Part shown: piece after piece, positions 1,914 through 22,107 of the stretch | Numbering within the stretch: the stretch's first letter is position 1 | How the letters are laid out: each line of letters opens with the position of its first letter | Source of the DNA: a virus | DNA length: 23,804 bases | Strand: one strand, 5' to 3' | IMG/VR virus record: IMGVR_UViG_3300034198_005756 | Coordinates: 1-23,804 of that record | Made by a program: the position numbers and the translations under genes | Notes under the pieces: model-generated | The model's database searches: none | Told to the model about the DNA's origin: nothing | Seen by the model: only the letters and a program-made list of their open reading frames with translations

Positions 1914-3302
1914 TCAATCTCTGGTTCCTCTGTCTAGTGAAATTTCAGGGGAATTTAGTGGTTTTTTGAATATTTTGGTTATATTTGCCTTTTTAGTCTT
2001 TTCTATTTCAGCATCACTAGGAGTTGATTTATTTTTCTTTTTATCAGATTGAACAATATTTGTCATATTCCACTGATGTGGGAATGTTCCACCTTCTTTA
2101 AATGACATTCCAACTCTGGCAAGAACTTCTCCAGATTCACTTTCAAGTATCATTGTACAATTTACTATATCAGCATCATCTGGAAATTCAAATCTAATGT
2201 TGAATTCTTTCTTAAATTCTTCATAAACGTGTTTAAATGCCTCGCTTGTTCTACTACTCACAGCTATCATTTTTTCACGATCACTACCAACCAATAGATA
2301 TACGTCATCAGCTCCATCTAATCCAAGACGTTTTAGAATTCTGTTATTGATGCCTGCTTTATCAATAGCGTAGTAGTGCTTAAAAATTTTGTTAAACAAC
2401 AAATCTCTCATTTGTTGATATCCACGATTTTGAGTAATATATTGATTAGCCTTTTTTCTATAATCTGGGTCATTATGTTTCTTGGCATCATTTTTTATTT
2501 TAATCCATTTATCAGTAACAGACAGTACTGTTTCAATGTCTTCACGAAACTGAGGAGCATCTTTTAAAAATGCCTCAATTGCTTTTTTACCAGTAGCAGG
2601 ATTTTCTGTACCAGTTATAACTGTCATTAGATAAGAGGCAAAAGTAGCATTATATATATTAACGCCACTAGAACTTTTGTAAAGTTTTAAACTGGCTTTT
2701 ATTTCTTCTAGCACTTCTTCTGTATCTAACTTTCTAATAGTTATCTTAACATCTTCTTTGCCCTTTTCAGAACGTGGTGCATCTTTATCAACAATGCTAC
2801 CAGTTAAATGTATGTCAACTTCGATTAGTTTGAAATCATGATCATCACGAATTTCATCCCATATCTTTTTTGCCATAATTTCACCACCTTCTTCGGCTCT
2901 TTTCAATTCAGCAAAAACTTGCTCTGGGGTATTTGGTTTAAACTTTAATATATTGTCTACAATGTAAGAACGATAATTATCAGCAAATTGCTTTAATCCC
3001 TCGGAGACATTTGTTTTAATTTTGATTCCGTTATGTTCTAATCCATAGGCCAACTTCCAGCCGACACAATACTCATTGTAGTAGCCTATCATTGCAGTTA
3101 AATTAAAAACTTCTCGATCTTTAGTGTTCTTTTTTGCTTCATCTAAAGCAGTGGATGATGATAAATAGTCAGACAAATCGATTTCTACCTTCTGTCCAAA
3201 TTGAAGTTTGCTGAATACTTTAGAGAAATAAGAGATAAGCCGTTTAGACCCACTCTTAATATCGGACCAAAAACTTTCTTGTAATAGATCATTAATTTTC
3301 AT
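1914..3302 (-). CDS. Tagged phage protein, possible PD-(D/E)xK nuclease fold
   Basis: A 462-residue protein I do not recognise as a named family. It opens with MKINDLLQE, one of seven leaders in this window ending in (L/I)-x-E, the T4 prohead-protease cleavage consensus, so I infer packaging in the head. Residues 184-206 contain an acidic D184 before a beta-like DVKITI stretch, then E200-I-K202 and a second Lys at 206 (EEIKASLKLYKS). This spacing resembles the D...ExK core of PD-(D/E)xK nucleases but is weak evidence alone. The C-terminal 40 residues are Lys-rich and low in complexity. The start codon has no Shine-Dalgarno. An AATAAATA octamer ends 8 nt before it, overlapping the stop codon of the dam-like gene. 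Confidence 0.75.
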   Translation of the reverse strand: MKINDLLQESFWSDIKSGSKRLISYFSKVFSKLQFGQKVEIDLSDYLSSSTALDEAKKNTKDREVFNLTAMIGYYNEYCVGWKLAYGLEHNGIKIKTNVSEGLKQFADNYRSYIVDNILKFKPNTPEQVFAELKRAEEGGEIMAKKIWDEIRDDHDFKLIEVDIHLTGSIVDKDAPRSEKGKEDVKITIRKLDTEEVLEEIKASLKLYKSSSGVNIYNATFASYLMTVITGTENPATGKKAIEAFLKDAPQFREDIETVLSVTDKWIKIKNDAKKHNDPDYRKKANQYITQNRGYQQMRDLLFNKIFKHYYAIDKAGINNRILKRLGLDGADDVYLLVGSDREKMIAVSSRTSEAFKHVYEEFKKEFNIRFEFPDDADIVNCTMILESESGEVLARVGMSFKEGGTFPHQWNMTNIVQSDKKKNKSTPSDAEIEKTKKANITKIFKKPLNSPEISLDRGTRD

Positions 3303-3310
3303 AGTAATAC

Positions 3311-3318
3311 TATTTATT
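3311..3318 (-). promoter_or_regulatory. Late-promoter-like octamer AATAAATA
   Basis: One mismatch from the T4 late consensus TATAAATA. With T4 spacing (octamer at about -13 to -6) transcription would begin about 3 nt before the ATG at 3302. It overlaps the stop codon of the upstream gene. In such AT-rich DNA a single octamer is weak evidence; support comes from the same arrangement at other tagged genes. Confidence 0.45.
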
Positions 3319-4234
3319 CAAAAGTAAATAGATTTGATTCTATGATTTTTTTCCTCTTAGATACTACTGGAACTATAGGCTGAGGTTGATAGTTTAAGAT
3401 CAAAACTTCTACTCGTTCTGGTCTAACACCCTTGGCTGATTTTCCATCTTTACGTACTGCTCCCTCTACCTTAGTCAAGCCATTGTTAGAGTAAGTTATC
3501 TGCTCATGCCAGTAGAATTTATCTCTAGGCATGATATCTTCTAGTTCTTTAAAGTAGTAATAACTTAAAGCAAACTTACCTTTCATGGCACTCATTTGTG
3601 TTAGCAATTCAATATGATCCTCACGCCCAAAACTATTCTTGGTATAATAATCTTCTAAGTTAAAGTAGGGTGGATCAATGTAGAAGAATGTATCAGCGTG
3701 ATCATATTTAGTGATAACTGCTCTACAGTCCATATTTTCAGTAGTCATTACATCAAGTCTATCTAAGTAATGTTGCTGTGAGAATTTTTCTGTGTAGGTA
3801 TAAAATTTAGATTTATACTTTGGATTACTGTAGATTTTTGTTTTCTCGTGTAGTCCCAAACCCCCAGTAAAAAACTGAGTTTGTAAAAACATATACTTGG
3901 CTGCCAAATCGTAATCTGGCGTAACAAAGTTGGTGTTATATACTTGAAATATTTGATCACGAAATTGTTCAAATACTGCAGCATTACCTACGCTTGGATA
4001 TAAATTCTTTAGTGCTATTTCAAACTTCTTTGGGTCTGTACTAGCACAAGTAAACACATTGTATAAATGACGATTAAAGTCATTATACACATTGATTTGT
4101 GCTGGAGTCTTTTTGCTCATCCAATACATCCAAAATGCTCCACCAAATACCTCAACATAAGTCTTGAAGTTAGTTGGAAATAATGGATCAATCCATTTAC
4201 TATGTTGTTTTTTGCCGCCGATATATGGAAACAT
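3314..4234 (-). CDS. dam: DNA adenine methyltransferase, Dam/D12 class
   Basis: A 306-residue N6-adenine methyltransferase that transfers a methyl group from S-adenosylmethionine to adenine in DNA. Motifs are in the order of the D12 (Dam, T4 Dam) class: FPYIGGK at residues 2-8, EVFGGAF, a NVYNDFN stretch and the catalytic DPPY in FFYIDPPYF near residue 186. I prefer the ATG at 4234 because AGGA lies about 7 nt upstream and FPYIGGK then follows directly, as in family members; a TTG six codons upstream is possible. The ATG is 7 nt after the stop of the preceding gene. Likely roles are protection of phage DNA from host restriction or marking of DNA. The target, GATC or other, cannot be read from the protein. 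Confidence 0.9.
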   Translation of the reverse strand: MFPYIGGKKQHSKWIDPLFPTNFKTYVEVFGGAFWMYWMSKKTPAQINVYNDFNRHLYNVFTCASTDPKKFEIALKNLYPSVGNAAVFEQFRDQIFQVYNTNFVTPDYDLAAKYMFLQTQFFTGGLGLHEKTKIYSNPKYKSKFYTYTEKFSQQHYLDRLDVMTTENMDCRAVITKYDHADTFFYIDPPYFNLEDYYTKNSFGREDHIELLTQMSAMKGKFALSYYYFKELEDIMPRDKFYWHEQITYSNNGLTKVEGAVRKDGKSAKGVRPERVEVLILNYQPQPIVPVVSKRKKIIESNLFTFE

Positions 4235-4241
4235 TGTTATC

Positions 4242-4697
4242 CTAAATTTCAAAGTCTTCCATGCCAGCAGTTTTTAGTTTGACTAAATGACCTAGCATGT
4301 AATTTTTAGATTCTAATCCTTTCATTACTGAAAGGTACTTATTTCTGAGTAGTGCTATCTCATTACAAAGAGTTTCCATGTCAATAACATCCTGCTCACC
4401 ATCAACATAGCGTTCTGCATCTCTGCTAGTTAAGGCTCTGTTATAGTTCTCAAGATATTTTTGAAATGTTTGACTACGAAGTTTCTTGAGTTGAATGTTC
4501 ATAAAATTCAACACAGATTCAATTTCTTGTAATTGAGAAAACACTCGTTCAGTTATTCCAGGAAGTTCAGAAATACTTTTCTGAATCAGTCCTTTTATAT
4601 GTGTAGCGTATTTTGCCTGATTTAATTCTGACTCATAGTGAGCGATAAAATCAGGCAAATTTGCTAAGTTTTGTGTTACTTTATGATACCAGTTCAT
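4242..4697 (-). CDS. Helical protein next to UvsX, candidate recombination mediator
   Basis: A 151-residue protein, almost wholly predicted helical and charged, with one Cys. The conserved-looking part is C-terminal (RDAERYVDGEQDVID, then a Leu-rich helix and LKTAGMEDFEI). I do not recognise it firmly. T4 encodes a small helical recombination mediator, UvsY, that loads UvsX on gp32-coated DNA. Size, helicity and position two genes after uvsX in a block that begins with gp32 make a UvsY-like role plausible, but this is inference from context. It follows the acidic 93-residue gene by 3 nt and precedes the dam-like gene by 7 nt, so it is in the same operon. Confidence 0.75.
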   Translation of the reverse strand: MNWYHKVTQNLANLPDFIAHYESELNQAKYATHIKGLIQKSISELPGITERVFSQLQEIESVLNFMNIQLKKLRSQTFQKYLENYNRALTSRDAERYVDGEQDVIDMETLCNEIALLRNKYLSVMKGLESKNYMLGHLVKLKTAGMEDFEI

Positions 4698-4700
4698 TGA

Positions 4701-4982
4701 TTACCAATTTTCATCTTCTTCATCATCATCGTCATCATCAGTGTAATCTAACTCACTGTCTAGTTCGTCTTCATCGTCCCATTCTCCTTCATCTGAATCG
4801 ATGTAGAATTTTAATGCGTCGATGATTATACCTTCTCCACGAAAAGCTTCACGAATTTCACTGGCACTAACATCATTATCAACTAGCATAGTAATGATAT
4901 TCTCAGCTACAATAGAACGATCACTACTAATGATACTATCTTTAACTACAGACCACATTTCGGCCACTAACATTAAACTCAT
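4701..4982 (-). CDS. Small acidic protein co-transcribed with uvsX
   Basis: 93 residues. The N-terminal 60 are a helical, hydrophobic-patterned region (AEMWSVVKDSI, then ENIITMLVDN and SASEIREAF). The last 30 are extremely acidic, with runs of Asp and Glu ending in ENW. The ATG overlaps the uvsX stop as ATGA, so translation is probably coupled. Acidic tails on partners of ssDNA-binding and recombinase proteins often mimic DNA or mediate docking; such a role for this protein is my guess. No named family recognised. Confidence 0.75.
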   Translation of the reverse strand: MSLMLVAEMWSVVKDSIISSDRSIVAENIITMLVDNDVSASEIREAFRGEGIIIDALKFYIDSDEGEWDDEDELDSELDYTDDDDDDEEDENW

Positions 4983-6046: not shown

Positions 6047-6049
6047 TTA

Positions 6050-6280: not shown

Positions 6281-6299
6281 GTTTATTCTCCAGATATAA

Positions 6300-6327
6300 G
6301 AATATATCCGATTTCTCGGATATATTC
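6300..6327 (-). terminator. Perfect 12-bp hairpin between gp32-like and downstream genes
   Basis: GAATATATCCGA and its exact reverse complement flank a 4-nt loop. It lies between the stop of the gp32-like gene (6340) and the start of the 76-residue gene (6280), ending about 19 nt before that ATG. There is no clean T run on the minus strand, so it may be a weak terminator, a 3'-end stabiliser that raises gp32 mRNA over the downstream genes, or a processing site. I favour attenuation or stabilisation over full termination because uvsX has no promoter of its own that I can see. Confidence 0.6.
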
Positions 6328-6339
6328 TAGACCTAATAG

Positions 6340-7548: not shown

Positions 7549-10017
7549 TTAAGTTGTGGATTGAGTTGTATCGGGGCTCAATACCGGATATACCGAGTAT
7601 CTAGAGTTGTTGTTGTTGAAATATCCAGTTCTCTGTGCCCATTCACCAGCTACTCGATTAGCATCACTTTGAGAGTTGCCTATGCCACCGAATCTATAAA
7701 CTTCTTGATCTGATCCATTAACCACTATCCACTCACCAGTAAATTCGCCGCCTGATAGTCGTGCTTCTCGTTGACGTTCGCGTCGAGCTTGAGCTTGAGC
7801 TTGACGTTGTAAGTCCAAAGTGGATCCAGGAATAAAATTTTGAGCAATATCCATTCCAATATCTTGAACATTAGAATTTGATCTAGTTTGTGTAGATTGA
7901 TTCATTTCACTTCGAGCCACTTCATTTAGTGGTTTTAGTTCAAATCCAGCTAGTCCATTACGTTGTTTATACATAGAACGTAGCCACGAATCAGCTATTA
8001 CCTCAGCAACTGATTTGTCACTAGCCAGTACTTTACAAACTGTTTCTGGTACTAATTCATTATTATTTACTAGCTCCCACTTAGATTGAGTAAGATACGC
8101 GTCGGAAAGATTAGTTGAATTATTTGCTATAGTCAAAGTTCCATAATGATCTCTGACCGCAACACGTTTCATTGATGATTCTGTTGTACTTTCTCCTACT
8201 AGCGTAGCTTCCCAGTCATCGACAGATGCACGTGTGTTGTGCCATTCTGTTTCCCATTTTTTAACTAACTCAAGTGCATCTTTTTTGGTTTTTGCAAAAA
8301 CATTACAGTAGTTATATCTTGGTTCGTCTTTAGCTGAAACATCCCAGTTTAATATTCTTCCTGATGCTGCTAGACTATCTGTATTTCTAATTAAATTTTT
8401 CTTAAAAAGTGTACTCTTTAGTTCTTTTAGCCAATTATCTAATTCTTCTTTGCTTAGTCTTCCAGCAGAAAATGATGCTAATTTTTTAGCAAGCTCAGGA
8501 GCAATCTTTTCGGTAGGAGCAAGTAGCTTATATAATTTCTTTTGATATTCTTTTCGTTCATAAGAAGGATCACTGGCAATGTGTATAGCTTGTGCATATC
8601 TACGTAGTGTATTTTGTAATTTATCTATATCATCAAAATAATCTGTATTGCCGGCACTACGAAATTCAATGTACTTGTCTTTAGGATTTATACTGATATA
8701 TTTTCCAAACCCACCGTTTGGTGCTATTAAACTGCTAGCAATATTATCAAGACCCTCTTTCATCAAAGTAAATACATTTTCTATATCAATATTTCCTCTT
8801 GCTACTTTGGATTTGATTTTTTCCATAGCAGACACACAAAAATGATTACCATCTCTGTTAAACTCTTCTAGAACATGCACATCACCCAAGAATAATGCCA
8901 ATTTAGTATAATCTATTAAACTAGTATCTTGTGATGGTACACTTACACTCATATGAAAACCAGTGGTTTCATTGGCATATGCATCTCGTGATGCGGCCCA
9001 TTTGAAAAACTTAGGCATTATATCAAGACATTCTTTTAGTGGCATAGGAGGACTAACTATTTCAACTGTCATGTCGCTAGTACTACTAGCCTGTAAACTA
9101 CCATCTGGTTCAAATACCCAATCTCTTTGTCTATCTCCACCATATCCATGACCACTACTTACAAATGTTCTTACTCCTAACTTTGTTTTTAAATCATTTG
9201 CAAGCCACTGTGCTGCCGACTCATCAAATCCTTCATCATCGTCACTATCACTAGTCCAAAATGGCCAGTATGCATCATCATAAGCGAGATTAACATCACT
9301 CATGTAACTGAGATTGGCGGCTGCCAGCCACTCATTTTCCATGTTTGGATCTTCTCCGTATTCTTCTCTGATATTTTCTTCTGTTTGATCATAGATATCA
9401 TCACGAGAACTAATAGAGTTTTCTACCATGTCATCTAATGTTTTGTCTGCCAGTTCTTTTCCAATGACATAGAGTTCATAATCATCTAAATATGGTTTAA
9501 CTTCTAATTTGTATTCTTCTGAATCTTTTTGATAATTATTTCTAAGTTTAATAATTTTGTTATTAGCAAAGATCGCGTCTTCTATTCTTCCATCATCATA
9601 GCCATTATCTTTTAAATCAATTTTTATTTGCTCGTCCCAATCCCATTCATTTTCTATGATATAGTCTTTAATCAATCTTTCTTTATTTCTTTCAAAGTCT
9701 TCTGATGCTTGTTCATTTACCCATTCAAGAAAATCTTCAGTTAAATTTGTTTGTAGACGATCTAGCTCTCGATAACCCATGTTATCGCCCTGTCTAAAAA
9801 AATTAATAATATTGTCAATACTATTAGTGTGACTATCATAATCCATATCTGGCTCTGATTCAGAATCAGTGTTCTCACGAATATCAGAAAAGCATAGCTC
9901 TGCTTCAAAACCGGCGATGATTCCTTCTGCCTCGGGACTATTAGCAAATTGAGCTAAACGTGTTGGAGCTTGACTTACTTCGTCTAGTTGCTGAATAAAT
10001 AATTCATATAATTTCAT
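7549..10017 (-). CDS. Amidoligase-like virion protein, paralogue 1 (822 residues)
   Basis: Third transcribed and shortest of three tandem paralogues. Leader MKLYELFIQQLDE ends in L11-D-E13, a possible prohead-protease site. An amidoligase (COOH-NH2 ligase, glutamine-synthetase fold) signature follows: G36-F-E38-A-E40 for metal/ATP binding, DGSL and VEIVSPPM near residues 310-327, TGFHMSV near 352 and INPKDKYIEFRSAG ending near 453. Members of this superfamily make ATP-dependent amide bonds between carboxyl and amine groups; the substrate here is unknown. The region 60-250 is acidic and helical. Beyond residue 550 come about three diverged modules of the W-x-V type, the clearest at about 760 (GEWIVVNGSDQEVYRFGG). 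The gene overlaps nothing; its GATAAATA octamer lies inside the stop region of paralogue 2. Confidence 0.82.
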   Translation of the reverse strand: MKLYELFIQQLDEVSQAPTRLAQFANSPEAEGIIAGFEAELCFSDIRENTDSESEPDMDYDSHTNSIDNIINFFRQGDNMGYRELDRLQTNLTEDFLEWVNEQASEDFERNKERLIKDYIIENEWDWDEQIKIDLKDNGYDDGRIEDAIFANNKIIKLRNNYQKDSEEYKLEVKPYLDDYELYVIGKELADKTLDDMVENSISSRDDIYDQTEENIREEYGEDPNMENEWLAAANLSYMSDVNLAYDDAYWPFWTSDSDDDEGFDESAAQWLANDLKTKLGVRTFVSSGHGYGGDRQRDWVFEPDGSLQASSTSDMTVEIVSPPMPLKECLDIMPKFFKWAASRDAYANETTGFHMSVSVPSQDTSLIDYTKLALFLGDVHVLEEFNRDGNHFCVSAMEKIKSKVARGNIDIENVFTLMKEGLDNIASSLIAPNGGFGKYISINPKDKYIEFRSAGNTDYFDDIDKLQNTLRRYAQAIHIASDPSYERKEYQKKLYKLLAPTEKIAPELAKKLASFSAGRLSKEELDNWLKELKSTLFKKNLIRNTDSLAASGRILNWDVSAKDEPRYNYCNVFAKTKKDALELVKKWETEWHNTRASVDDWEATLVGESTTESSMKRVAVRDHYGTLTIANNSTNLSDAYLTQSKWELVNNNELVPETVCKVLASDKSVAEVIADSWLRSMYKQRNGLAGFELKPLNEVARSEMNQSTQTRSNSNVQDIGMDIAQNFIPGSTLDLQRQAQAQARRERQREARLSGGEFTGEWIVVNGSDQEVYRFGGIGNSQSDANRVAGEWAQRTGYFNNNNSRYSVYPVLSPDTTQSTT

Positions 10018-10022: not shown

Positions 10023-10030
10023 TATTTATC
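10023..10030 (-). promoter_or_regulatory. Late-promoter-like octamer GATAAATA, 5 nt before ATG
   Basis: With T4 late spacing the first transcribed base would be the A of the ATG at 10017. No Shine-Dalgarno is visible. The next paralogue has the same octamer at exactly the same distance (12854-12861), which argues against chance. Confidence 0.55.
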
Positions 10031-12897: not shown

Positions 12898-15800
12898 TTA
12901 TGGATACAGCATTGGCAATGGAACTAATTCAATTCGCGGTATACGAAGTCCTCGAATTCTGGCATCATCTGTCCATTCTACTCCCATCTGCCATGCCTCA
13001 GTATGTCTTGCAGATGGAGGAGTAGTTGATGGCAAAGTAATATGATGTAGAACTTCATTAGTAGAAGAGTCGATAATATTCCATTGTAGCGATTCATTAG
13101 GATCAGTAGCATTAGTAGACCTTTCTGGTTCAGCAGTAGTACTCTCTGGGTCAACTCGGTCTATACTATAATTTCTGTAATCTTGTCCTATTGCATTGGC
13201 ATATGCTCTTAAACGATCAATTAACGTACCGGTATTGTGGCTAATAAAGCGATACACTATACGACCATCTGACGCTCTTATTCCCCAATTGCCTTCAGGA
13301 TTACTTGGTTCAAGAGTCTGTGGAGAGTTAGCCTGCATTCTGGGAGGAACTGGCAGATTTCTATCTCGTGCATCTATAATGTCATATGAATCTGCTGGGC
13401 GAAGATAAAATCGTGCCTCACGCCCTAACATGTAACCAGTATTTTGAAGCCAATGTTGATATGCAAGTTGTGCATCTTGTCCAGTAATAGCCGGAAGAAG
13501 AGCTAGATTGTCCATGTTTGTAACACCATCGGCTGAATTAAACACAATCCAATATCCAGTTGTACTTGTTCTAGTAGCATCTAGTTCTGCAGGGCGACGA
13601 GTTTCGTGATTTTCTGATCTTTGTGTTCTGTATTCTCGTGGAACTTCCGATATCGGACTTAACCACAAACGAGCTCGTGAAACTCCTATTGCTGTTGCAT
13701 ACTGCATTGCTATGTCAATTGCCAGATTATTTCCCAAAGCTTGAAATTGATACAGTATTGGCCCTCGTCCAACTTGACGATTACTATCTCTATTTCTTAT
13801 TGCCCAATTTCCCTCTTGAGTGTTATTTGGCAAATAGTCCGGTATATGCCCAGGCTGAATATCATTTGAACTATCAGTTTGTCTGGATGTTGCATCATCT
13901 GATAGTAATGTTGCTCTAAATTCTGTAGGCTCAGTTGATCCTCTAGTCCATAAACTATAATGATAATTTTGTAGAGCATTCATGATAGCAGCTCGTTCAG
14001 TATCACCATATCCAGGAACCGTCCATGAAAAATCGTTAACATTAAATACTTCCCATCTAGGTAGATTGTCAGGGTTATTTTGTGTGGTAACATTTGCTGC
14101 GCCAGTTGGAGTCGAACCTATCGGTCTAGCTATAAAGTCAGAATTTTGCCATCCTCGATGAGTTTCTGGAGATATGTGCCATTCTGCACGAGCCAAAGCT
14201 ATAGCTTCATCTTGACTACGGGCCTGAACAGTTGTTTGTGGCCCACCTTGACGATCTGCTCCTTCGTATGCTCTATATGAAACTCTATAAAACATTTTAT
14301 TGCCTTGATCTGACTTTTTATAAAGCTTACGAGTACTTTGAATTTGCCTAATTATATCTTTTAAATTACTTTTTGCCAATTCACCAGCTACATATTGAGA
14401 AAAATACCAAATTGGATCATGTTTAGATACAGTTGTTAATTTATCATCAGAATTTTTTTGTAATCGTACATCACCTAATAACTTATATAATTTCTTAGCA
14501 TACTCTTGCTTTTCTGAATTGACATCCATGCCTATACTCATTGCACGTGCATAACGTAACATTGTATTTTGTAGCTTAGAAATATTATTAATATAATCTA
14601 CTCCACCAGCTGAACGAAATTCAATGTACTTGTCTTTGGGATTAATAGTAAAATACTTGCCATATCCAGCAGAAGAGGCAAATGCATTTGTAGCTAAAGA
14701 ATTTAATTCTGTTCGCATTTGTTTAAATGCTTGCTCAATTTTATCATCTGGTCTTGGTATAACAGTTCTTGATCTGCTTGAGTTAATAATATCTTTAATA
14801 TTTTTCATTGCCGACTGAGCATATGAATTGGCAGTTCGACCAAACTGTTCTAGTATGTATTGATCACCCAAAAATAATGCTGCCTTAACGTAATCTAAAT
14901 CATTACCACTGTGTTCTGGCATACTAACACTCATATGTATTCCAGTACTTTTATTAGCATAGGCTTTGTGACTTTTTGCCCATTCAAAGAACTTGGGCAT
15001 AATTGCTAGAGTTTCTTCTAGCGACATAGGTGGGCTAACAATTTCCACGGGCATGTCTTCGCTATTAGTTGAATTTAAGCTACCATCTGCTTCAAATACC
15101 CAAACATCAGATGGAGTATTACGTTTTGCTGTAGAGCCTCTAGTACCAGATTCTACTTGTGTTTTTACACCTAGTGCTTTTTCTAGACTACCTGCCAAGA
15201 TAAGAGCATGTCCTACATGATAGTGACCATCTGCAGGAACAGTGTTATTTACTCGACTCCAATATGGCCATTCATTCGCGAATGAAAATCTTGAGCCTAC
15301 ATCACGCATACTAAAGATACCAATATTTCTCAACCAACTTCTTTCAGAAGCTTCCCAGTTTTCTATAAACTCGTCATAAGCTCCCTGCCAGTTTCCATCA
15401 TGATCTCTCATGGAACGTTCAACTAATTGAGTTAATTGATCTGATACTTCTCTTTTTACAAATATGTACTCATCATTATCAGTGCGATCTGGATCATTCA
15501 TTATATCAGTTGCTTCTTCTGAAGTTTTACCCAGTTCATTAACAAAATATTCATGAATTTTTTCAGAATATTCCCAGCGAAGATCAGCTTTAATATAGTC
15601 TCTAATCAAGTCACGTGCCTGTTCAGCAAATTCCTCAAGCACTGCAGTGTCTCTCCATTCAGTGTAAGAATCGTGCATTTGTTGTTCAGCAGAGTTTCTC
15701 GTGGATGAATCAAGTAATGGACTAAAAAACTCTAGGATTTGATCTATAGTATTGGCACGCTCATCTCTATCATAATCAGGTTCTTGATCTTGATCTTCTT

Positions 15801-15966
15801 CATCATCTGTAGTGTTAAGCATATCTTTAAATATTAGTTCTGCTTCAAACCCCGCTTTCATGCCACTAGCATGTTTTTTTGCCCAAGATTTTAATGCACT
15901 AGAACTCATATTAACTTCATTCAGTTGTACATTTCTTTTTTTAATGAATAATTCGTACAATTTCAT
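12898..15966 (-). CDS. Amidoligase-like virion protein, paralogue 3 (1022 residues)
   Basis: First transcribed and longest of the three. Leader MKLYELFIKKRNVQLNE ends in L15-N-E17 and has a 4-residue insert compared with its neighbours. The amidoligase core follows: G39-F-E41-A-E43, FEADGSL, PVEIVSPPM near 309, STGIHMSVSMP near 343 and INPKDKYIEFRSAGG near 450. Six C-terminal modules start near 557 (FYRVSYRAY), 635 (RWEVFNVND), 717 (GNWAIRNRD), 803 (GYWIVFNSA), 890 (GNWGIRASDG) and 959 (LQWNIIDSS). Compared with paralogue 2, about two modules have been added at the C-terminus. The ATG overlaps the stop of the nucleotidylyltransferase gene as ATGA, so it is translationally coupled to it and has no late octamer of its own. 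The carboxyl/amine substrates and the ligand of the modules are unknown. Confidence 0.82.
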   Translation of the reverse strand: MKLYELFIKKRNVQLNEVNMSSSALKSWAKKHASGMKAGFEAELIFKDMLNTTDDEEDQDQEPDYDRDERANTIDQILEFFSPLLDSSTRNSAEQQMHDSYTEWRDTAVLEEFAEQARDLIRDYIKADLRWEYSEKIHEYFVNELGKTSEEATDIMNDPDRTDNDEYIFVKREVSDQLTQLVERSMRDHDGNWQGAYDEFIENWEASERSWLRNIGIFSMRDVGSRFSFANEWPYWSRVNNTVPADGHYHVGHALILAGSLEKALGVKTQVESGTRGSTAKRNTPSDVWVFEADGSLNSTNSEDMPVEIVSPPMSLEETLAIMPKFFEWAKSHKAYANKSTGIHMSVSMPEHSGNDLDYVKAALFLGDQYILEQFGRTANSYAQSAMKNIKDIINSSRSRTVIPRPDDKIEQAFKQMRTELNSLATNAFASSAGYGKYFTINPKDKYIEFRSAGGVDYINNISKLQNTMLRYARAMSIGMDVNSEKQEYAKKLYKLLGDVRLQKNSDDKLTTVSKHDPIWYFSQYVAGELAKSNLKDIIRQIQSTRKLYKKSDQGNKMFYRVSYRAYEGADRQGGPQTTVQARSQDEAIALARAEWHISPETHRGWQNSDFIARPIGSTPTGAANVTTQNNPDNLPRWEVFNVNDFSWTVPGYGDTERAAIMNALQNYHYSLWTRGSTEPTEFRATLLSDDATSRQTDSSNDIQPGHIPDYLPNNTQEGNWAIRNRDSNRQVGRGPILYQFQALGNNLAIDIAMQYATAIGVSRARLWLSPISEVPREYRTQRSENHETRRPAELDATRTSTTGYWIVFNSADGVTNMDNLALLPAITGQDAQLAYQHWLQNTGYMLGREARFYLRPADSYDIIDARDRNLPVPPRMQANSPQTLEPSNPEGNWGIRASDGRIVYRFISHNTGTLIDRLRAYANAIGQDYRNYSIDRVDPESTTAEPERSTNATDPNESLQWNIIDSSTNEVLHHITLPSTTPPSARHTEAWQMGVEWTDDARIRGLRIPRIELVPLPMLYP

Positions 15967-16772
15967 CTTCTGTGGCCCATAAACCTTTCTGTATTTTTGG
16001 CATTAATTGCAGCAAGTTTAATTTCTCTTGGAGTTGGTTTAGTAGTTGATAGTGCAATTGGAGTTCCTGGAATAGCACTTTGACTTCCCATTCCCGCTCC
16101 GCCGTTGTTTGGATTATCTGCTTCATCTAATCCACGTTCTACAGGAAATCCCATTCTTTCTGCTGCTAACTGCATATAATGCTCTACTTCACCATCATCT
16201 AACTTTGCTGGCATACACTCACGCCATAAATTAAATTTTTGTTCATATGTAGCATCTGGTTCTTTTAATATTTCTCTCATTGGAGTAGCTCTTGGGCCAG
16301 CTTCATTTGCATACTTGTCACCAGATTCTTGACGACTTATTACAGTTAATTTGTCAAAATTATATATAATATTTCCAGTTGTTTTTGCTGGTACTCCGTT
16401 GTATCTAAGTAAATATTGAAATTCTGTTTTTTGATCTTCACCTACCATAACCATACAATTTTTATATCCATCATTATTTAATTGATGTAGTACATCAATT
16501 AAATTTTTGGCAGTTTGAAATGAATCAACGTGATTTGGGAATACAGTACGATAAATCTCTAGTTTCTCATCTGGTAGTAATGGATCATCTTTACCTACTG
16601 TCTCGCTTACAATAAAATAAGCATCAGCGTGTAGTCTATGAGCGGTGGATATAACTGCGTGTGCCAAGTACATATGACCTTTGTGGCCCATTCCACGCCC
16701 CCAACCTACTATAGCAGTATCTTTGTTACCGATTTTATTAATTGATTCTGCTAATAGTTCTCTTATTTTCAC
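15963..16772 (-). CDS. HxGH nucleotidylyltransferase-like protein, virion-tagged
   Basis: 269 residues from a GTG start that overlaps the preceding stop (GTGA). Leader MKIRELLAE ends in L7-A-E9. From residue 20 the protein reads as a cytidylyltransferase-like nucleotidylyltransferase: AIVGWGRGMGHKGH gives the H30-K-G-H33 motif that binds the nucleotide triphosphate, a Rossmann-type region follows, then SETVGKDDPLLPDEKLEIYR, typical of phage members. A late GPRATPMREIL near 180 takes the place of the family's ISxTxxR element. These enzymes transfer a nucleotidyl group to a phosphate or phosphate-bearing small molecule (NMN-type or CTP-type reactions); the substrate is open. The last 55 residues are low in complexity (Gly/Asn/Ser/Pro). 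Its gene lies between the ligase-like gene and the amidoligases in an overlapping operon. Confidence 0.82.
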   Translation of the reverse strand: MKIRELLAESINKIGNKDTAIVGWGRGMGHKGHMYLAHAVISTAHRLHADAYFIVSETVGKDDPLLPDEKLEIYRTVFPNHVDSFQTAKNLIDVLHQLNNDGYKNCMVMVGEDQKTEFQYLLRYNGVPAKTTGNIIYNFDKLTVISRQESGDKYANEAGPRATPMREILKEPDATYEQKFNLWRECMPAKLDDGEVEHYMQLAAERMGFPVERGLDEADNPNNGGAGMGSQSAIPGTPIALSTTKPTPREIKLAAINAKNTERFMGHRR

Positions 16773-17947
16773 GATTTTCCGCCACGATTCTGATAACGAT
16801 TTGCTGCTGTAAATCCAGCACGTTTAACAAATTTCAATGGTTGAACTCCGCCTGCTGGATCGCTTACAAATCCTTCTCCGCCTGATCCATAATCAAATGG
16901 CAATTCTGCTCTGATACCCAAACTTCCTAGTGTTGGTTTTTCAATTTGATCAATGACCATATCTTTCAAATGCATAATAGCACGAACTACCAAGAACGTA
17001 GCTCTTAATCCGCTTTGACTGCTTTTTATTTTATTAATAGCAATTGGTCTACGACGAGCTGTCAATATAACATCAGTAGTTGCCCATTGAGCCATATTTG
17101 ATCCTAGTGAATCTAATGCTCCAGGAGTATCTACTTGACTATTAACATATTTGTAAATAACTTGACGCCATGCAGGGCCAGCTTGCTCTTCATTTCTAAA
17201 TGTTTGCACCCATTCTTCATCTGGTGTTAAAAATTCTTCCATTCTTGGAGCAGCTTGCTTAATAAATGTTTCTACTCTTTTAAGTTTTTCAGTCGATACT
17301 GATGCTTGAACTTCTGTAAATTTAGGAGGAATAATAAGAACGCTTTTGCTTCCAATTCCTGTATGATTAGTTCCTACTGCTTCTCGCTGTCCACCCATTC
17401 CAGGAATTATTTTAAAATAAGCAGTGGCCGCGGCAGCACTAGTGCTATGACTTATCATTTGTCCCAATTTACTGTTTGCATCTACGTGATAGATTACAGT
17501 ATTGGGCTGAAATGAATATTCATTATTTTTTAATGCTGGTCTAACTTTATATAGCAATCCACATTCTAAGAATCCACGAAATTCAAGTGGAGTTGCTTGC
17601 TCGTATAGTTTGTACAGTGCCATCATCTCGCCAGCAAACTGTCTACGATCATCATTGTTAGCATCTTTTGGCTCATACTGTTTGTATAACATGTCTGGGC
17701 TAGTATTAAACTGACGACTGAATTTATCACCAAAATGAAATTCACCCTTATCATTACGACCAAACACAATGGCTGGACTTCCGTCCCATTTTACTTCCAT
17801 GTGACCGCTATCATTATTAATTCTAATCAATCTTTCTATTGCACGCATTGCGCCTTCTGGTCCATAAATGTATGCCAAATCTTCAATGTGCTGAAATTCA
17901 CGACCTACTGGTTCTGAATTCTCTAAGATAAATTGTTCTGCTCTCAT
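16769..17947 (-). CDS. KxDG nucleotidyltransferase, polynucleotide-ligase-like, virion-tagged
   Basis: 392 residues. Leader MRAEQFILE ends in I7-L-E9. Residues 51-63 (EVKWDGSPAIVFG) contain K53-W-D-G56, the covalent-nucleotidyl Lys motif I of ATP ligases, RNA ligases and capping enzymes. FRGFLECGLLY (123-133) is placed like motif III/IIIa, and near the C-terminus EGFV (358-361) and LKFVKR (K372, K375) are placed like motifs IV and V. The order and residues support a ligase-superfamily catalytic domain, though the spacing between motifs III and IV is long. I recall close relatives in marine T4-like phages annotated only as a DUF. Join DNA, RNA or something else: unknown. The ATG overlaps the upstream stop (ATGA). 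It is not the usual phage DNA ligase. Confidence 0.8.
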   Translation of the reverse strand: MRAEQFILENSEPVGREFQHIEDLAYIYGPEGAMRAIERLIRINNDSGHMEVKWDGSPAIVFGRNDKGEFHFGDKFSRQFNTSPDMLYKQYEPKDANNDDRRQFAGEMMALYKLYEQATPLEFRGFLECGLLYKVRPALKNNEYSFQPNTVIYHVDANSKLGQMISHSTSAAAATAYFKIIPGMGGQREAVGTNHTGIGSKSVLIIPPKFTEVQASVSTEKLKRVETFIKQAAPRMEEFLTPDEEWVQTFRNEEQAGPAWRQVIYKYVNSQVDTPGALDSLGSNMAQWATTDVILTARRRPIAINKIKSSQSGLRATFLVVRAIMHLKDMVIDQIEKPTLGSLGIRAELPFDYGSGGEGFVSDPAGGVQPLKFVKRAGFTAANRYQNRGGKS

Positions 17948-19491
17948 AGTCCGCTTAACCTTTTAATTCGTTCTAGTGATTCAGAAAGCTCCATTGGATT
18001 CTTAAGTGCCTTGATATTAGGATCAACCCATTTAGAATTATCTTGAACTCTCTTGATTTTACTTTGCTTACGCTGTTCTTTAACTTGATTTCCGCCACTT
18101 AGTGCTGGAATCTGAGACATTCCAGAAGAAGCAGGTTCTTCTTCTGGCTCTTCTTCTGGTTCTTCATCTGAAACTGGTGGAGATGATTCTGGCTCTTCTG
18201 GAGCTGGAGACGAAGCAGGCTCTTCCGGAGTAGTATCACTTTGTGGTTCAATTTGATCTAATATGTCATGATACTCATCGCCACGTTGCTCACTCATCCA
18301 TGCTATAATTATACTACGAGCATCGCGATTAGTGTTTCTAGTTGCTGCTCTACGTAATCTAGAATAAAGTTTGTCGTTTTCTATTAGTCCGTTCAATTCA
18401 CCAATGGCATTTTTTGCATCTGGTCCTAGTGCCAAAAATTCACTGTCTGAACCCAATAGCTCAACTAAGTCACTACGTTGTCCAGGTTGATCTGGTGTTA
18501 ACATCTCATCTAATATATTATTAGCCCAATCCTCAAACATTGACATGTCAGAAGTTTCTGTAATAGTTAAATTTAATTTATTTAAAACAGGCAATGCATT
18601 TTCTATTCTGATATCAACTGAACTATTTTTAAACAATTCTATTAGACTAGAATCATCTGAATCTTCCATTAAAGTAGGCTGCCAGCTTTCAAAATAATTA
18701 TTGTATCCACGTACACTTTGTAGTCTTTTAAGATTTTCACGCAAAGTCTTATAGTGTTCTGTTGCTTCTAGTACAATTCGTTGTACACTTTCATTAAATT
18801 GTTTTGTTTTTGTAGCTCGAACAAATCCACCTAATTTTCTAGCATCTTCTACTATTTCTGTAATATGTTTCCATCTTTCATCATTATGAAGTCCACCTTC
18901 TGCTAAATGTCTAGCAAATATACGACCAATACCAGGTCTTGTGCTTGGAACAAGCACACGTTCTCCATATTCATTCTCTAAAAAAATACGCTCTACATAA
19001 CGATATCTAGCATCATTTTCATCTAAAGCTTTATTATGTTTAATGATCATTTTGATAGCGGCGGGACCATTATCACTGTAACTTGTCTGACGAGTTCCAT
19101 AATAACCCTCGTCTAATTTTCTATTATGATCTCTTGTTGCCATATCAGATTCAATATTGTCCAAATCATCTAGTTTCATTTTTAAACCACGACGAATTGC
19201 AAAATTTTTCAATTGTCTGACAAATTGTACCCAACCACCATTGTCTTCGTCTTCATCTAATGCTCTGGTAACTTCTGTGTTGTAGTAAACAATCATATTA
19301 TTTTGATCATCTATGGTAATATCTACAGTACCATAATTTTTATCACCGCTTTTAAAATTAAATTCAAACGCTTCTGCCTTTTCAGGAACAACGGCATTTT
19401 CGCCAGAGCTTGACAGTGGTTTAACTTTAAATCCCTTAGTGGTTAATAGATCATTTAATTCTACGTTTACTGATTCTCTGCTTTTTGGCAT
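17944..19491 (-). CDS. Conserved phage protein with Glu/Pro/Ser-rich linker
   Basis: 515 residues. I recognise the pattern (MPKSRESVNVELNDLL, YGTVDITIDDQNNMIVYY, SYSDNGPAAIKMIIKHNK, RPGIGRIFARHLAEGG) as one recurrent in uncultured large-phage genomes, but know no function. Residues about 1-230 look globular, 230-430 helical, and 430-475 form an acidic Pro/Glu/Ser linker with EEPEEE repeats. The last 40 residues are basic (KEQRKQSKIKRVQ). No (L/I)-x-E leader is present, unlike its downstream neighbours. It follows the terminase gene by 34 nt, with a GATAAATA octamer and AGG in that gap, and overlaps the ligase-like gene as ATGA. A structural or head-assembly role is suggested only by position. 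Confidence 0.75.
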   Translation of the reverse strand: MPKSRESVNVELNDLLTTKGFKVKPLSSSGENAVVPEKAEAFEFNFKSGDKNYGTVDITIDDQNNMIVYYNTEVTRALDEDEDNGGWVQFVRQLKNFAIRRGLKMKLDDLDNIESDMATRDHNRKLDEGYYGTRQTSYSDNGPAAIKMIIKHNKALDENDARYRYVERIFLENEYGERVLVPSTRPGIGRIFARHLAEGGLHNDERWKHITEIVEDARKLGGFVRATKTKQFNESVQRIVLEATEHYKTLRENLKRLQSVRGYNNYFESWQPTLMEDSDDSSLIELFKNSSVDIRIENALPVLNKLNLTITETSDMSMFEDWANNILDEMLTPDQPGQRSDLVELLGSDSEFLALGPDAKNAIGELNGLIENDKLYSRLRRAATRNTNRDARSIIIAWMSEQRGDEYHDILDQIEPQSDTTPEEPASSPAPEEPESSPPVSDEEPEEEPEEEPASSGMSQIPALSGGNQVKEQRKQSKIKRVQDNSKWVDPNIKALKNPMELSESLERIKRLSGL

Positions 19492-19514
19492 GATGGGTTA
19501 CCTAGTTTATCTAT

Positions 19515-19522
19515 TATTTATC
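19515..19522 (-). promoter_or_regulatory. Late-promoter-like octamer GATAAATA
   Basis: Predicted start near 19509 gives an 18-nt leader with an AGG ribosome site before the ATG at 19491. It lies between the terminase stop and the 515-residue gene. The flanks can form an imperfect hairpin (ATGAT-A-GG with CC-C-ATCAT), the right arm running into the start codon. Confidence 0.5.
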
Positions 19523-19525
19523 ATT

Positions 19526-21085
19526 TTAGCCTATCATCGCGATGAATGGCATTGGAGCAATCATCTCTCCGTGATCTCTGATATGCTTGTTAATATTAAC
19601 ATGAAAGCTTTGTAGATGTTGAAATATTCTTACTGCCAATAGGGTTGACATCACCAAATCATCAGTGTCTCCTGACTTTGCGGCATAACTACCACCACTT
19701 GCCACAAAAGTTTTGAGTTCAGATATCAATAATTCACTTGATATCTTCATCTTTTTGCTTTCAATTAGATTCTTTAATTTGCTACATGCTTCTAGCTTAC
19801 TACGATTAGTAGTAGTAAATCCACGACGATATCGTTTAACACTACCTAATTTTTTAGGCTCACTAATCATATTTCCACGAATCTTGTCTTCTCCAAATTC
19901 TTGTAATGATATCAATGCTGCTTCTCCAATCGTATTATTTTCTAAACTATAATACAAGTGATTGGGTTGATTAGTACATTCTATAATATGTTCATTGATT
20001 TCGCTTAATATTTTTATTTGTTCTGGAATAGTAGTTTTATTATGACGCCATTCTGCTACTTGAGTAGTAGTATCTGCTTCAAATACTTGTATAGCTGCTG
20101 GATCACCACCTGTTCCCAAACTAGGATCTAGTGCCACTACATATATTCTATCTTTAGTTGGTTTCTTAAACCATCTGACTTGACCAGTTTTATACAATGG
20201 TTCTTTGCTTGACAATTCAGTCAATTTTATGTTGTCTATTAGTGTTTCTTCATCAATGATAAATTCAAGCTCGTGTTCTCGTCTAAATCGATCTTCACCA
20301 ATTTGAGCAATTTCTCTTATCTTCCATTCTTCGTCACGATCAGGATGTTCCCACCAATATGCTTTATACGCTGAATATCCATTAGCACCCAACTTAGTTG
20401 CATTACCATAAGCATCAACTTTTTTGTTAGCTTCACGCCATATTTTTGAAAATTGATCTTCGTCACTGTTAGGAGTAGATGTAATAATACATTTACCACC
20501 AGTTGATAGTGTAGGTGAAATGGCAGTCCAGAACTCTTTTGCTATACTTGGTCGAACGAAAGCAAACTCATCAAGATATAATAATGATAGCGACATACCA
20601 CGACCGGTCTTTTCAGTGGTTGCTCTTGCTACAATTCTACTTTTATTAGCAAAGTCAATATTACCCTTGTTGTATGTTTCAACTGCTGCTTTTAACCACA
20701 TTGGACAAAACTCATAACCATAACGAATACGATCCATGATCTCTTGTGCTCCGCTGTATTGATGAGCAGCAATTAACACTGTTTGATCAGGATGAAACAT
20801 TGCAAACCATAGTAGATAACCGGCAGCACTTGTAGTCTTACCAGTTTGTCTTGACATCATACTTACTGAAAATCTGTTAGTATGATAATTATCTATCAAT
20901 CCGATTTGAAACGGATAAGGCTTATACAACAATTGCCCTAATTTAGGATGCTGTATATAAAAATAATTTTCCATAAAGTATCGGTATCCCGTTTGAGGAT
21001 GACAGCACTTGATGATCTCATTTATTTGATCTGGTGTTATATCTATCTTTCTGCTTTTTGTTCTAACTAAATTATTATCACTCAT
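19526..21085 (-). CDS. Terminase large subunit, T4 gp17 type
   Basis: The DNA-packaging motor: an N-terminal ATPase drives DNA into the prohead and a C-terminal RNase H-like nuclease cuts the concatemer. From the ATG at 21085 (MSDNNLVRTKSRK, 519 residues) the Walker A variant SRQTGKTT (78-85) and Walker B LLYLDEF (D172, E173) are clear. ITSTPNSDEDQ follows as the coupling motif. The nuclease acidic residues appear in VVALDPSLGTGGD (near 316), YSLENN and GDTDDLVMS. I choose this ATG because GGAG lies 8 nt upstream; the in-frame GTG eight codons earlier lies inside the upstream gene's end. It starts 1 nt after that gene's stop. Length and motif order are normal for myovirus large terminases. 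Confidence 0.95.
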   Translation of the reverse strand: MSDNNLVRTKSRKIDITPDQINEIIKCCHPQTGYRYFMENYFYIQHPKLGQLLYKPYPFQIGLIDNYHTNRFSVSMMSRQTGKTTSAAGYLLWFAMFHPDQTVLIAAHQYSGAQEIMDRIRYGYEFCPMWLKAAVETYNKGNIDFANKSRIVARATTEKTGRGMSLSLLYLDEFAFVRPSIAKEFWTAISPTLSTGGKCIITSTPNSDEDQFSKIWREANKKVDAYGNATKLGANGYSAYKAYWWEHPDRDEEWKIREIAQIGEDRFRREHELEFIIDEETLIDNIKLTELSSKEPLYKTGQVRWFKKPTKDRIYVVALDPSLGTGGDPAAIQVFEADTTTQVAEWRHNKTTIPEQIKILSEINEHIIECTNQPNHLYYSLENNTIGEAALISLQEFGEDKIRGNMISEPKKLGSVKRYRRGFTTTNRSKLEACSKLKNLIESKKMKISSELLISELKTFVASGGSYAAKSGDTDDLVMSTLLAVRIFQHLQSFHVNINKHIRDHGEMIAPMPFIAMIG

Positions 21086-21086
21086 A

Positions 21087-21398
21087 TTATTCTCCAAACG
21101 GGTCTTCACCCGTTAATTCTGGTTTGGCATACATAACTTTAAACCAGCGCGGAGAACCCAGCTTGATATTATTTTCTTTAATGAATTCTAGTCTTTTACT
21201 TTTGTCAATGAATTTATCTTCAATTGAAGGTTCTGAGGCACTAGTGCCATCTAGTCCAGCAAGTTTACGCATACCAGCAAGTGCATCATCATATGATTCA
21301 TCAATCGTATGTTCTGCTAAACGTGTTTGTATCTGCTGTGCGTTTTCTTCTTTTAATTTTAGTATATCTTCTAATGTTTTATAAAATTGTGTAGCCAT
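21087..21398 (-). CDS. Small protein in the small-terminase position
   Basis: 103 residues from the ATG at 21398 (MATQFYKTLEDILKLKEEN). An upstream TTG is in frame but would read through the late octamer. The N-terminal half is helical with a possible coiled coil, and the C-terminus reads SPRWFKVMYAKPELTGEDPFGE-like, basic/aromatic then acidic. It directly precedes the large terminase (1-nt gap), where T4-like phages keep the small terminase that recognises DNA and stimulates gp17. I do not recognise its sequence as gp16, so the role rests on position and helicity. No Shine-Dalgarno is seen; the ACTAAATA octamer ends 7 nt before the ATG. Confidence 0.75.
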   Translation of the reverse strand: MATQFYKTLEDILKLKEENAQQIQTRLAEHTIDESYDDALAGMRKLAGLDGTSASEPSIEDKFIDKSKRLEFIKENNIKLGSPRWFKVMYAKPELTGEDPFGE

Positions 21399-21405
21399 AG
21401 TGTAG

Positions 21406-21413
21406 TATTTAGT
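21406..21413 (-). promoter_or_regulatory. Late-promoter-like octamer ACTAAATA
   Basis: Predicted start about 2 nt before the ATG at 21398. It lies 11 nt after a terminator stem, so the terminase unit appears to begin here. The identical octamer at the same 7-nt distance precedes the kinase-like gene. Confidence 0.5.
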
Positions 21414-21423
21414 TTTATAACGC

Positions 21424-21451
21424 AAAAACCCTAGATATTATTCTAGAGTTT
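21424..21451 (-). terminator. Intrinsic terminator after the kinase-like gene
   Basis: On the minus strand AAACTCTAGA pairs with TCTAGGGTTT (one G-T pair, 6-nt loop) and the T run reaches five. It starts 5 nt past the stop of the kinase-like gene and separates it from the terminase unit. Confidence 0.8.
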
Positions 21452-21456
21452 GTTGT

Positions 21457-22107
21457 TTAATATTCTTCTTCAACTATCCATGGATCAAGAATAACTATTG
21501 TCCCATTGTTTCGCATCATGAAATTTTTAGGATTTAGATCAAATGTCCATCCTTTTCCCTCAGCAATGCGACTAAGTTTACCCATAGTTTTGTAAAATAG
21601 TTTTAAACTATCTTTTCCGCTGGTTTTTTCAAAATGATCATATAATTCTTTGTTTAAGTTATATTTTTGAATCATTTCATCAAAACTATCACCCATTTCC
21701 GCATCAGTTGACATATTGTATAGTTTCCATCCCCAAGTTGGTCGTAAATCAATTAAATACTCTTGTCGTATTTGTAAGTATACATGTTTTTTCCAATAAA
21801 AACTTTCAAAACCATAGAACTTAGGTAGAAATGGATTGCTGCTATTATCATTACAATAATTGACCCAAGTAAAGAACATTTTTTGATCTTTTGAGAATAT
21901 TGGTCTTTTTCTTTTTCCTGATGGAGAAAGTGCAACATCATCTTTAGTTCCAAATATTTTAAGAACTTGTCCAGTTCTCGGTTCAAGAAATGATGTTTGA
22001 TCGCTTCCTTTCCCTAAAAACTTATAACCTCTATCTGGGTGAGTGAGATATTTAATGATTTCTGGATCAGTGTCAGTATATTCGTCTATAATTTGATTGA
22101 TTTTCAT
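21457..22107 (-). CDS. Minimal protein-kinase-fold protein, virion-tagged
   Basis: 216 residues. Leader MKINQIIDE ends in I7-D-E9. The rest lines up with a compact kinase or aminoglycoside-phosphotransferase fold: Gly-rich loop FLGKGSDQTSFL (30-41), V-L-K50 as the beta-3 Lys, IRQEYL (113-118) as a hinge, catalytic loop D190-L-N-P-K-N195 and I-L-D208-P-W in place of DFG. The residues for ATP/metal binding and phosphotransfer (K50, D190, N195, D208) are all present, so activity is plausible; the substrate is unknown. At 216 residues it is short for the fold (usually 250-300). The start codon lies in the arm of a long inverted repeat and lacks a Shine-Dalgarno. A terminator follows. Confidence 0.8.
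   Translation of the reverse strand: MKINQIIDEYTDTDPEIIKYLTHPDRGYKFLGKGSDQTSFLEPRTGQVLKIFGTKDDVALSPSGKRKRPIFSKDQKMFFTWVNYCNDNSSNPFLPKFYGFESFYWKKHVYLQIRQEYLIDLRPTWGWKLYNMSTDAEMGDSFDEMIQKYNLNKELYDHFEKTSGKDSLKLFYKTMGKLSRIAEGKGWTFDLNPKNFMMRNNGTIVILDPWIVEEEY

Follow-up and report, generated by a model that had tools for sequence, protein, structure and literature searches.

Why would phage enzymes of unrelated families begin with the same kind of short peptide? The question is raised by IMG/VR virus record IMGVR_UViG_3300034198_005756, the 23,804 bases of which were analyzed in full (here called the window) and the described genes of which all lie on the minus strand. A prediction made from the sequence alone proposed that seven unrelated proteins share an N-terminal leader ending in (L/I)xE and form a set of enzymes that are packaged in the head and ejected with the DNA. 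In T4, the prohead protease gp21 cuts after L/I-X-E, and propeptides of 10 to 19 residues direct internal proteins into the core of the prohead (PMC9026906). We conclude that the leaders of the window are quite probably capsid-targeting propeptides of packaged enzymes.

Five protein families share a leader ending in (L/I)xE

We found all seven leaders on the minus strand, exactly where they had been predicted. The E is residue 9 in four of them (an arrow marks the predicted cut): MKINDLLQE↓S (3276-3302) in a 462-residue protein of unassigned fold (1914..3302), MKIRELLAE↓S (16746-16772) in the 269-residue nucleotidylyltransferase (15963..16772), MRAEQFILE↓N (17921-17947) in the 392-residue DUF6267 protein (PF19782; 16769..17947), and MKINQIIDE↓Y (22081-22107) in the 216-residue kinase-like protein (21457..22107). 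The other three belong to amidoligase-like proteins. The E is residue 13 in protein C (822 residues, 7549..10017; MKLYELFIQQLDE↓V at 9979-10017) and protein B (939 residues, 10029..12848; MKLYELFEKQLNE↓V at 12810-12848), and it is residue 17 in protein A (1022 residues, 12898..15966; MKLYELFIKKRNVQLNE↓V at 15916-15966). The nucleotidylyltransferase starts with GTG and the other six with ATG. Predicted cuts after residue 9, 13, or 17 would give propeptides like those of T4, the shortest being one residue below the range given above. As predicted, the tag is absent from UvsX, the gp32-like protein, the Dam-like protein, the terminase, and the methyltransferase. The three amidoligases are paralogues of each other, so that the "seven unrelated proteins" have to be counted as five unrelated families.

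We counted leaders among the 17 proteins of the window that have 100 residues or more, the UvsY-like protein included, and compared the counts with those in 3000 shuffles of residues 2 to 25. The pattern M(K/R)...(L/I)xE with the E at residues 9 to 18, which was picked after the leaders had been seen, matched 7 of the 17 proteins (shuffle mean, 0.31), and none of the 3000 shuffles reached 7. The spacing pattern was not picked in this way but was taken from the T4 leader quoted in the original prediction; it matched 4 of the 17 (shuffle mean, 0.45), a count reached in 3 of the 3000 shuffles. A looser (L/I)xE pattern matched 8 of the 17 against a null of 2.2, and the eighth protein (21087-21398) was left out of the leader set. 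The leaders of separate families have different codons and different upstream DNA. Their origin is thus not explained by recent copying of a single start region.

All seven leader-tagged proteins are also present in G001 (IMG/VR 3300020048_000021; 169,847 bp), which is the same or a sister phage with a 98% identical terminase. In this genome, the M(K/R) pattern matched 11 of 145 proteins (null, 1.94), and the T4 spacing pattern matched 9 of 145 (null, 3.05). Further leader candidates in G001 are MTIRSFRKYLAE↓S in a 202-residue protein and MKINDLISE↓N in a 954-residue protein. The former protein, which begins MTIRSFRKYLAE↓SVRTYKYKIKIAG, has look-alikes, matched by eye, with leaders in G006 (MKNFKDFLTE↓S), G009 (MSKTFVEHLNE↓A), and G018 (MKSFKNYLTE↓S). 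Genome-wide, the spacing pattern was not significantly enriched in the more distant G018, G019, G006, and G009 (P values of 0.44, 0.38, 0.59, and 0.07, respectively).

A leader-bearing relative is found in virions, and related phages encode gp21

Marine cyanophages offer a comparison outside the window, as DUF6267 and nucleotidylyltransferase families adjoin each other in these phages. In S-SM1, gene 189 encodes a DUF6267 protein (Pfam, 1.6e-91), and gene 190 encodes a cytidylyltransferase of cluster T4-GC190. SSM1_190 is 27% identical to the nucleotidylyltransferase of the window over 135 residues (pair BLASTP E value, 2e-10) and has the N-terminal leader MKKFSAFLNE↓A. T4-GC190 is among the proteins newly found in purified S-SM1 virions, in which 41 proteins were detected (Sullivan et al., PMC3037559, in the portion available). 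By analogy, its presence in virions is the strongest independent support for the cargo reading. Leaders also occur in the diverged relatives Melnitz-1 _15 and _17, Syn9 gp184, P-SSM4_155, and S-SM2 _161.

A prohead protease is encoded by related phages. Among 35 records searched for both proteins, gp23 (PF07068) was found in 13, and gp21 (PF03420) was above the cut-off in the same 13. At the inferred maturation place, all 13 gp23 proteins, some of them near-identical, have LxE↓(S/A/T/N). The catalytic motifs DHP and SSRG are kept in all 11 gp21 proteins inspected.

These data also bear on whether the sites, if real, are cut outside the capsid by another protease of the host or phage. Such processing has a precedent in polyvalent proteins, for which zincin peptidases were proposed as processors (Iyer et al. 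2017, PMC5512222, in part). The motif in question, however, is that of gp21 and of the place where gp23 of related phages is inferred to mature, and we regard cutting by another protease as highly improbable. No zincin-like peptidase was among the Pfam matches of five scanned polyproteins, a survey that included no direct search and that weak matches could escape.

Several observations weigh against leaders as propeptides cut by gp21. There was no gp21 match in the window. G001 lacks gp23, and its gp21-like match is weak and lies in a 131-residue frame; most likely, G001 shows no full gp21 because the head region is missing from the record, gp23 being absent too. In the amidoligases the predicted cut is followed by V and in the kinase-like protein by Y, unlike the A, S, N, or G that is common elsewhere. 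The leader is missing from SSM1_189 and P-HM1_161 (both DUF6267), from P-HM1_162 (nucleotidylyltransferase), from the nucleotidylyltransferases of loci L148, L167, L171, and L176, and, as judged by eye, from Syn9 gp183 and P-SSM4_154. Printed virion presence is confined to the S-SM1 relatives (T4-GC190). Finally, a leader does not predict detection by mass spectrometry in PA5oct, the record of which annotates the detected proteins; we read these from their annotated starts and the others from our own gene caller, a difference in treatment between the two groups. The spacing pattern was found in 4 of 86 detected proteins versus 8 of 133 others, the loose pattern in 9 of 86 versus 25 of 133, and the M(K/R) form in 4 of 86 versus 3 of 133. 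The detected proteins of PA5oct include the leader-like starts MKINDIITE↓G and MKIKDILVE↓S.

The tagged modules recur in polyproteins with the same type of site at their borders

The modules have a second, fused state, which lies partly inside the window and was absent from the original prediction. The C-terminal 300 codons of a modular polyprotein run off the window end (22900..23802, minus strand). Its full form is seen in the homologues of a near-identical phage, L241 (786 residues; the window stretch is not the same letter for letter), and of G001 (P0001, 896 residues).

We fetched 79 loci with nucleotidylyltransferase relatives from IMG/VR and found both states. Standing alone in L131, the nucleotidylyltransferase has the leader MKISEILRE↓S; fused behind DUF6267, it follows the junctions ALKE↓NIQK (L116), RLRE↓SIEP (L181), PVSE↓NKMS (L126), and NLQE↓NINR (L132). 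DUF6267 stands alone with MKIRELIIE↓AAAAIGRKYQHIED (L140) and MKINEILTE↓AAAPSIGRKYQHIED (L167) and is fused with PQPINE↓AAAPAVGRKYQHIED (L160) and PATPLLE↓ATAPAVGRKYQHIED (L141). Counted over distinct contexts, (L/I/V/M)xE precedes DUF6267 in 13 of 16 stand-alone (shuffle mean, 7.5) and 30 of 33 fused (6.3) cases. It precedes the nucleotidylyltransferase in 29 of 34 stand-alone (11.8) and 10 of 10 fused (2.9) cases, although 14 of the 29 are doubtful MxLRE↓(F/L)LN forms, which counts against the leader reading. The kinase family likewise occurs in both states: as MKINQIIDE in the window and MRSQEFIDE in a distant relative (L316), and as a polyprotein cassette in L277 (pair E value, 4e-14). Apparent complete leaders lie within polyproteins at RE↓MRAKEFVAE↓S (L132) and MREFKSFLLE↓D (L261), an outcome that is expected if tagged genes fused.

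Several domains are joined in one chain. L133 combines ParB with a deaminase and L261 has a GNAT acetyltransferase, all over the Pfam cut-offs; the L126 and L132 polyproteins hold DUF6267 plus a nucleotidylyltransferase; and G001 P0001 has ParB and Pol-beta matches, both below the Pfam cut-off. By eye, cassettes of L277 and L261 resemble ADP-ribosyltransferases (LYHAT..., GYHVT...), with no Pfam confirmation.

We then asked how often the site lies at module borders, using proteins of at least 200 residues from 246 loci (1180 proteins; 881 distinct; 556 after clustering). Module starts were defined by all-against-all BLASTP as positions at which a homologous module begins in the interior of both proteins of a pair. 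In the stretch from -12 to +6 residues, 339 of 746 module starts had (L/I/V)xE (background, 27%), and 247 of 746 had (L/I/V)xE with A, G, S, T, N, or D next (background, 14%). With D, K, Q, N, R, S, or A in place of the E, the 746 starts showed no enrichment. In the set reduced at 40% identity, (L/I/V)xE occurred at 140 of 282 starts versus 72.8 ± 6.8 in circular shifts, none of 1000 of which reached 140, and (L/I/V)xD, xK, xS, and xxE were not enriched at module starts. Enrichment was stronger in proteins linked to a cargo seed (245 of 503 starts versus 132.6).

Some results of this test speak against a site specific to cargo borders. At module starts, E after a nonhydrophobic residue was in slight excess (ratio, 1.07; z, 2.4), and module ends were enriched for (L/I/V)xxE (1.19) and Ex(L/I/V) (1.27). 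Proteins with no link to a cargo seed were also enriched (94 of 243 versus 64.9), as were noncargo proteins at terminase loci (22 of 78 versus 14.3). Tail sheaths alone showed no boundary enrichment (2 of 13 versus 2.4 expected). Because proteins without a cargo link are also enriched, the test has no clean negative set.

Modules are exchanged at the junctions, some of which share a DNA word

The polyprotein genes of L241 and G001 share three DNA blocks at 89.5 to 94.8% identity with differing modules between them. Every internal block end lies at most 10 nucleotides from where the E codon of an (L/I/V)xE site ends, the next residue being A, G, S, N, T, D, or K. For random places, the fraction of trials with such proximity was 1.3e-4 in L241 and 1.5e-5 in G001.

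At the junctions of unrelated polyprotein modules, we found a recurrent word of 15 to 20 bp, agcAAGGTGTGGCGGAAGgc, with conserved codons. The window has two such junctions on the minus strand: DVAE↓G at 23575..23583, with the codons GTG GCG GAA, and GVAE↓A at 23067..23081, which matches the 15-bp junction word AAGGTGTGGCGGAAG exactly. At the cargo loci, V-A-E is coded GTG GCG GAA in 55 of 150 distinct contexts, while codon usage predicts 0.8%. Bases that were no part of the selection are also conserved, with AAGGT before and G after GTG GCG GAA each kept at >85%, and this conservation fades a few bases further out. The flanks of the word (up to 80 residues) form 42 clusters upstream and 34 downstream that have no detectable similarity, and 48 of 52 usable pairs are distinct. 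There are 42 exact copies of AAGGTGTGGCGGAAG in 16 of 27 records, several of the 27 having been picked because the word had already been seen there; the copies lie on one strand per record and never in the reversed reading. The V-A-E frame is used in 42 of 44 distinct AAGGTGTGGCGGAAG contexts. The word is present in the window and absent from G001. A conserved word at unrelated junctions suggests a short common sequence with two roles, serving module recombination and coding for the cleavage site.

Two more GTGGCGGAA copies lie on the minus strand in other frames, at 18090-18098 in the gene of a 515-residue protein and at 16777-16785 at the DUF6267 end; these are perhaps due to chance. In GTDB genomes, the junction word gave 70 single matches in 257 Gb, about twice the random estimate, and in cultured phages, it gave matches in 19 records with E values at chance level. 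KQGVAE in another fixed codon set was rejected as a candidate, as its 14 stretches are mostly unrelated and do not have the codons of the junction word.

A DNA word kept beyond the needs of the protein means that DNA recombination by itself can spread some of the pattern. The (L/I/V)xE junctions might thus be helical linkers, or scars of fusions, that recombination has copied and no protease reads, and the weaker enrichment in proteins not linked to cargo fits this too. But the same type of site occurs in stand-alone leaders, which are unlike in codons and upstream DNA, and at junctions that do not read VAE (ALKE in L116, RLRE in L181, and NLQE in L132). We therefore consider linkers or scars an unlikely explanation.

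Internal Tat-like signals follow the predicted cleavage sites

Inside large modular proteins, we found nine twin-arginine-like signals with a hydrophobic stretch, two of which are 95% alike. In eight of the nine, the arginines come 2 to 6 residues after (L/I/V/M)xE; random places in the same proteins gave a mean of 0.66 and a maximum of 5 in 20,000 trials. Signals so placed are found in L148, L263, L286, L291, L294, L306, and L445. Twin-arginine translocation (Tat) signals work only at the N terminus and so not inside a protein. The internal signals would become N-terminal if the chains were cut at the preceding sites. To judge from these sequences, the host may export ejected cargo via Tat.

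Internal Tat-like signals would be useless if the leader directed proteins to the head but stayed uncut and the polyproteins were packaged whole. The virion RNA polymerase of N4 is packaged unprocessed (PMC5512222, in part), and cleavage in our analysis is read from sequence, so that packaging without cutting deserves consideration. Yet E was specific in the reduced boundary test, in which the D, K, and S variants were not enriched, and gp23 has the same site. On balance, we think it improbable that the chains stay whole.

With leaders as propeptides, each enzyme would be drawn into the prohead core during head assembly. A gp21-type prohead protease would cut after (L/I)xE and remove the propeptide, and the freed enzyme would stay in the head and enter the host together with the DNA. 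Where fused modules have the same type of site at their borders, one protease could release several enzymes per chain, and modules would move between a leader-tagged single protein and a polyprotein. The task of the ligase-like enzyme, the nucleotidylyltransferase, the kinase-like enzyme, and the amidoligases would likely be early host takeover or counter-defence, acting before any phage gene is expressed. The prediction of capsid-targeting leaders on an enzyme cargo is supported by the leader-bearing relative in the S-SM1 virion cluster, by gp21 and gp23 in relatives, and by the kept junctions; by these analogies, we infer targeting, cleavage, and ejection in the phage of the window. We lean, with less assurance, toward a wider cassette system in large T4-like phages, in which modules bounded by prohead-protease sites are swapped exactly there, tagged or fused, cut in the head, and ejected. 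Some lineages would use the word of 15 to 20 bp encoding QGVAE↓G, and some cassettes would have a Tat signal that is N-terminal only after the cut, with the host exporting them to the periplasm.

Properties of the individual tagged proteins

DUF6267 is a family without an assigned function. The window protein matches it in Pfam at 2.5e-24, and its structure model has a predicted local distance difference test (pLDDT) score of 90.1, with leader residues 1 to 8 below 50. In VIA-align, rows 1 to 32 were all RNA/DNA ligases or ligation complexes (Z, 8.1 to 4.9; up to 202 residues), and Foldseek alone gave no match at an E value of ≤0.001. The residues KWDG (K53 W54 D55 G56) are invariant across 28 sequences, and KxDG is the active-site motif of the RNA/DNA ligase superfamily. 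The model thus points to a likely ligase-type nucleotidyltransferase with an RNA/DNA-ligase-like fold, despite the middling Z score (about 8), because the structure matches agree with the motif. The scan of viral contigs with DUF6267 itself returned its own lineage only, and its other relatives came via the nucleotidylyltransferase and terminase scans.

The nucleotidylyltransferase matches PHROG 3041 (cytidyltransferase) at 5.8e-22. We rejected an identity as nicotinamide mononucleotide adenylyltransferase (NMNAT), as a sequence search gave no credible solved relative. For the kinase-like protein, no solved-structure match was found below an E value of 0.1, and the kinase call comes from a weak match to PHROG 15752 (protein kinase; 1.6e-5).

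All three amidoligase-like proteins are above the Pfam cut-off of 22 bits for Amidoligase_2 (PF12224), with 33.7 bits for A, 27.9 for B, and 23.2 for C. The amidoligase gp196 of Atu_ph07 (31.1% identity over 20% of the query) has the N terminus MRWQDISSKKLTE↓L; its gene lies inside a virion-protein cluster (CDS 170-215), and gp196 is not named in the available main text on that phage. The 462-residue protein, a possible nuclease in the original prediction, had no Pfam or PHROG match, and its structure model is too poor to use (pLDDT, 36.6). Its leader is identical in G001, and a further LDE↓A stands at residue 55. In viral contigs, its relatives were two close ones from its own lineage only, and those of the amidoligases, searched with two peptides, were two records, again from their own lineage only. 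For this reason, a comparative test of these leaders is hardly possible.

Genomic context

The minus-strand gene order begins with the modular protein cut by the window end, the methyltransferase, the kinase-like protein, a small protein, the T4-like terminase large subunit (19526..21109), and a 515-residue protein without a leader (17944..19491; PHROG 13484, virion structural protein). It continues with DUF6267, the nucleotidylyltransferase, the three amidoligases, the gp32-like protein, a small protein, and UvsX and ends with a small protein, the UvsY-like gene (4242-4697), the Dam-like methyltransferase, the 462-residue protein, and two more. The terminase is 100% identical to that of IMG/VR 3300032271_000294 (41,090 bp), another record of this phage or of a sister phage. 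When the terminases of cultured phages were ranked, those of Pseudomonas jumbo phages such as PA5oct came first (50.8% identity over 98%).

A T4-late-promoter-like TATAAATA lies upstream of the methyltransferase at 22870-22877, a distance that is kept in G001. It occurs once in the window versus 2.93 times expected. As a T4 late promoter signal, it was rejected, with no clear genome-wide enrichment upstream of genes; compared with eight permuted words, it was above most but not all in G018, G019, and G006 and not in G001. Next to tail genes, G001 encodes an acidic 1528-residue protein (24777-29363; L089 4777-9363) with many LxE and VxE sites, which may be a head-core substrate.

Relation to known systems and implications

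Proteins with a capsid-targeting sequence in T4 share with this system a short N-terminal propeptide ending in L/I-X-E, gp21 and gp23 (found here in relatives), a T4-like terminase, and an enzyme cargo (Alt in T4). Unlike in T4, many unrelated enzymes share the leader here, polyprotein modules with border sites also occur, and a DNA word marks some junctions. The nearest concept is that of polyvalent proteins (PMC5512222, in part), multidomain phage proteins that mix enzyme domains and are thought to be injected; the present proteins differ in having prohead-protease-like border sites and the same modules as leader-tagged single proteins. The head and ejection proteins of SPN3US (and phiKZ) are also cut after E in short motifs, and ejected proteins are matured in the head. 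In SPN3US, however, the identified gp245 cleavages, self-cleavage aside, yield N-terminal propeptides, and no multi-enzyme chain is described in the available portions of those sources. The cyanophage T4-GC190 cytidylyltransferase shares a related enzyme, the leader, the DUF6267 neighbour, and virion detection; it differs in its low identity (given above) and in not being tied to a targeting leader in the available part of PMC3037559. PMC7824862, PMC10052503, and PMC6102473 were also consulted in part. Our searches of open-licence literature turned up no account of polyproteins that have prohead-protease sites, which is no proof of absence.

If true, this reading would supply a sequence rule for the ejected effectors of uncultured phages, namely (L/I)xE leaders plus (L/I/V)xE junctions. 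The junctions predict exact mature N termini, and therefore the idea is directly testable by proteomics. It would also point to enzymes, among them a ligase-like protein brought in with the DNA, as candidates for early counter-defence. More broadly, it suggests that phages make use of polyproteins and of a modular cargo, with their own capsid protease doing the processing.

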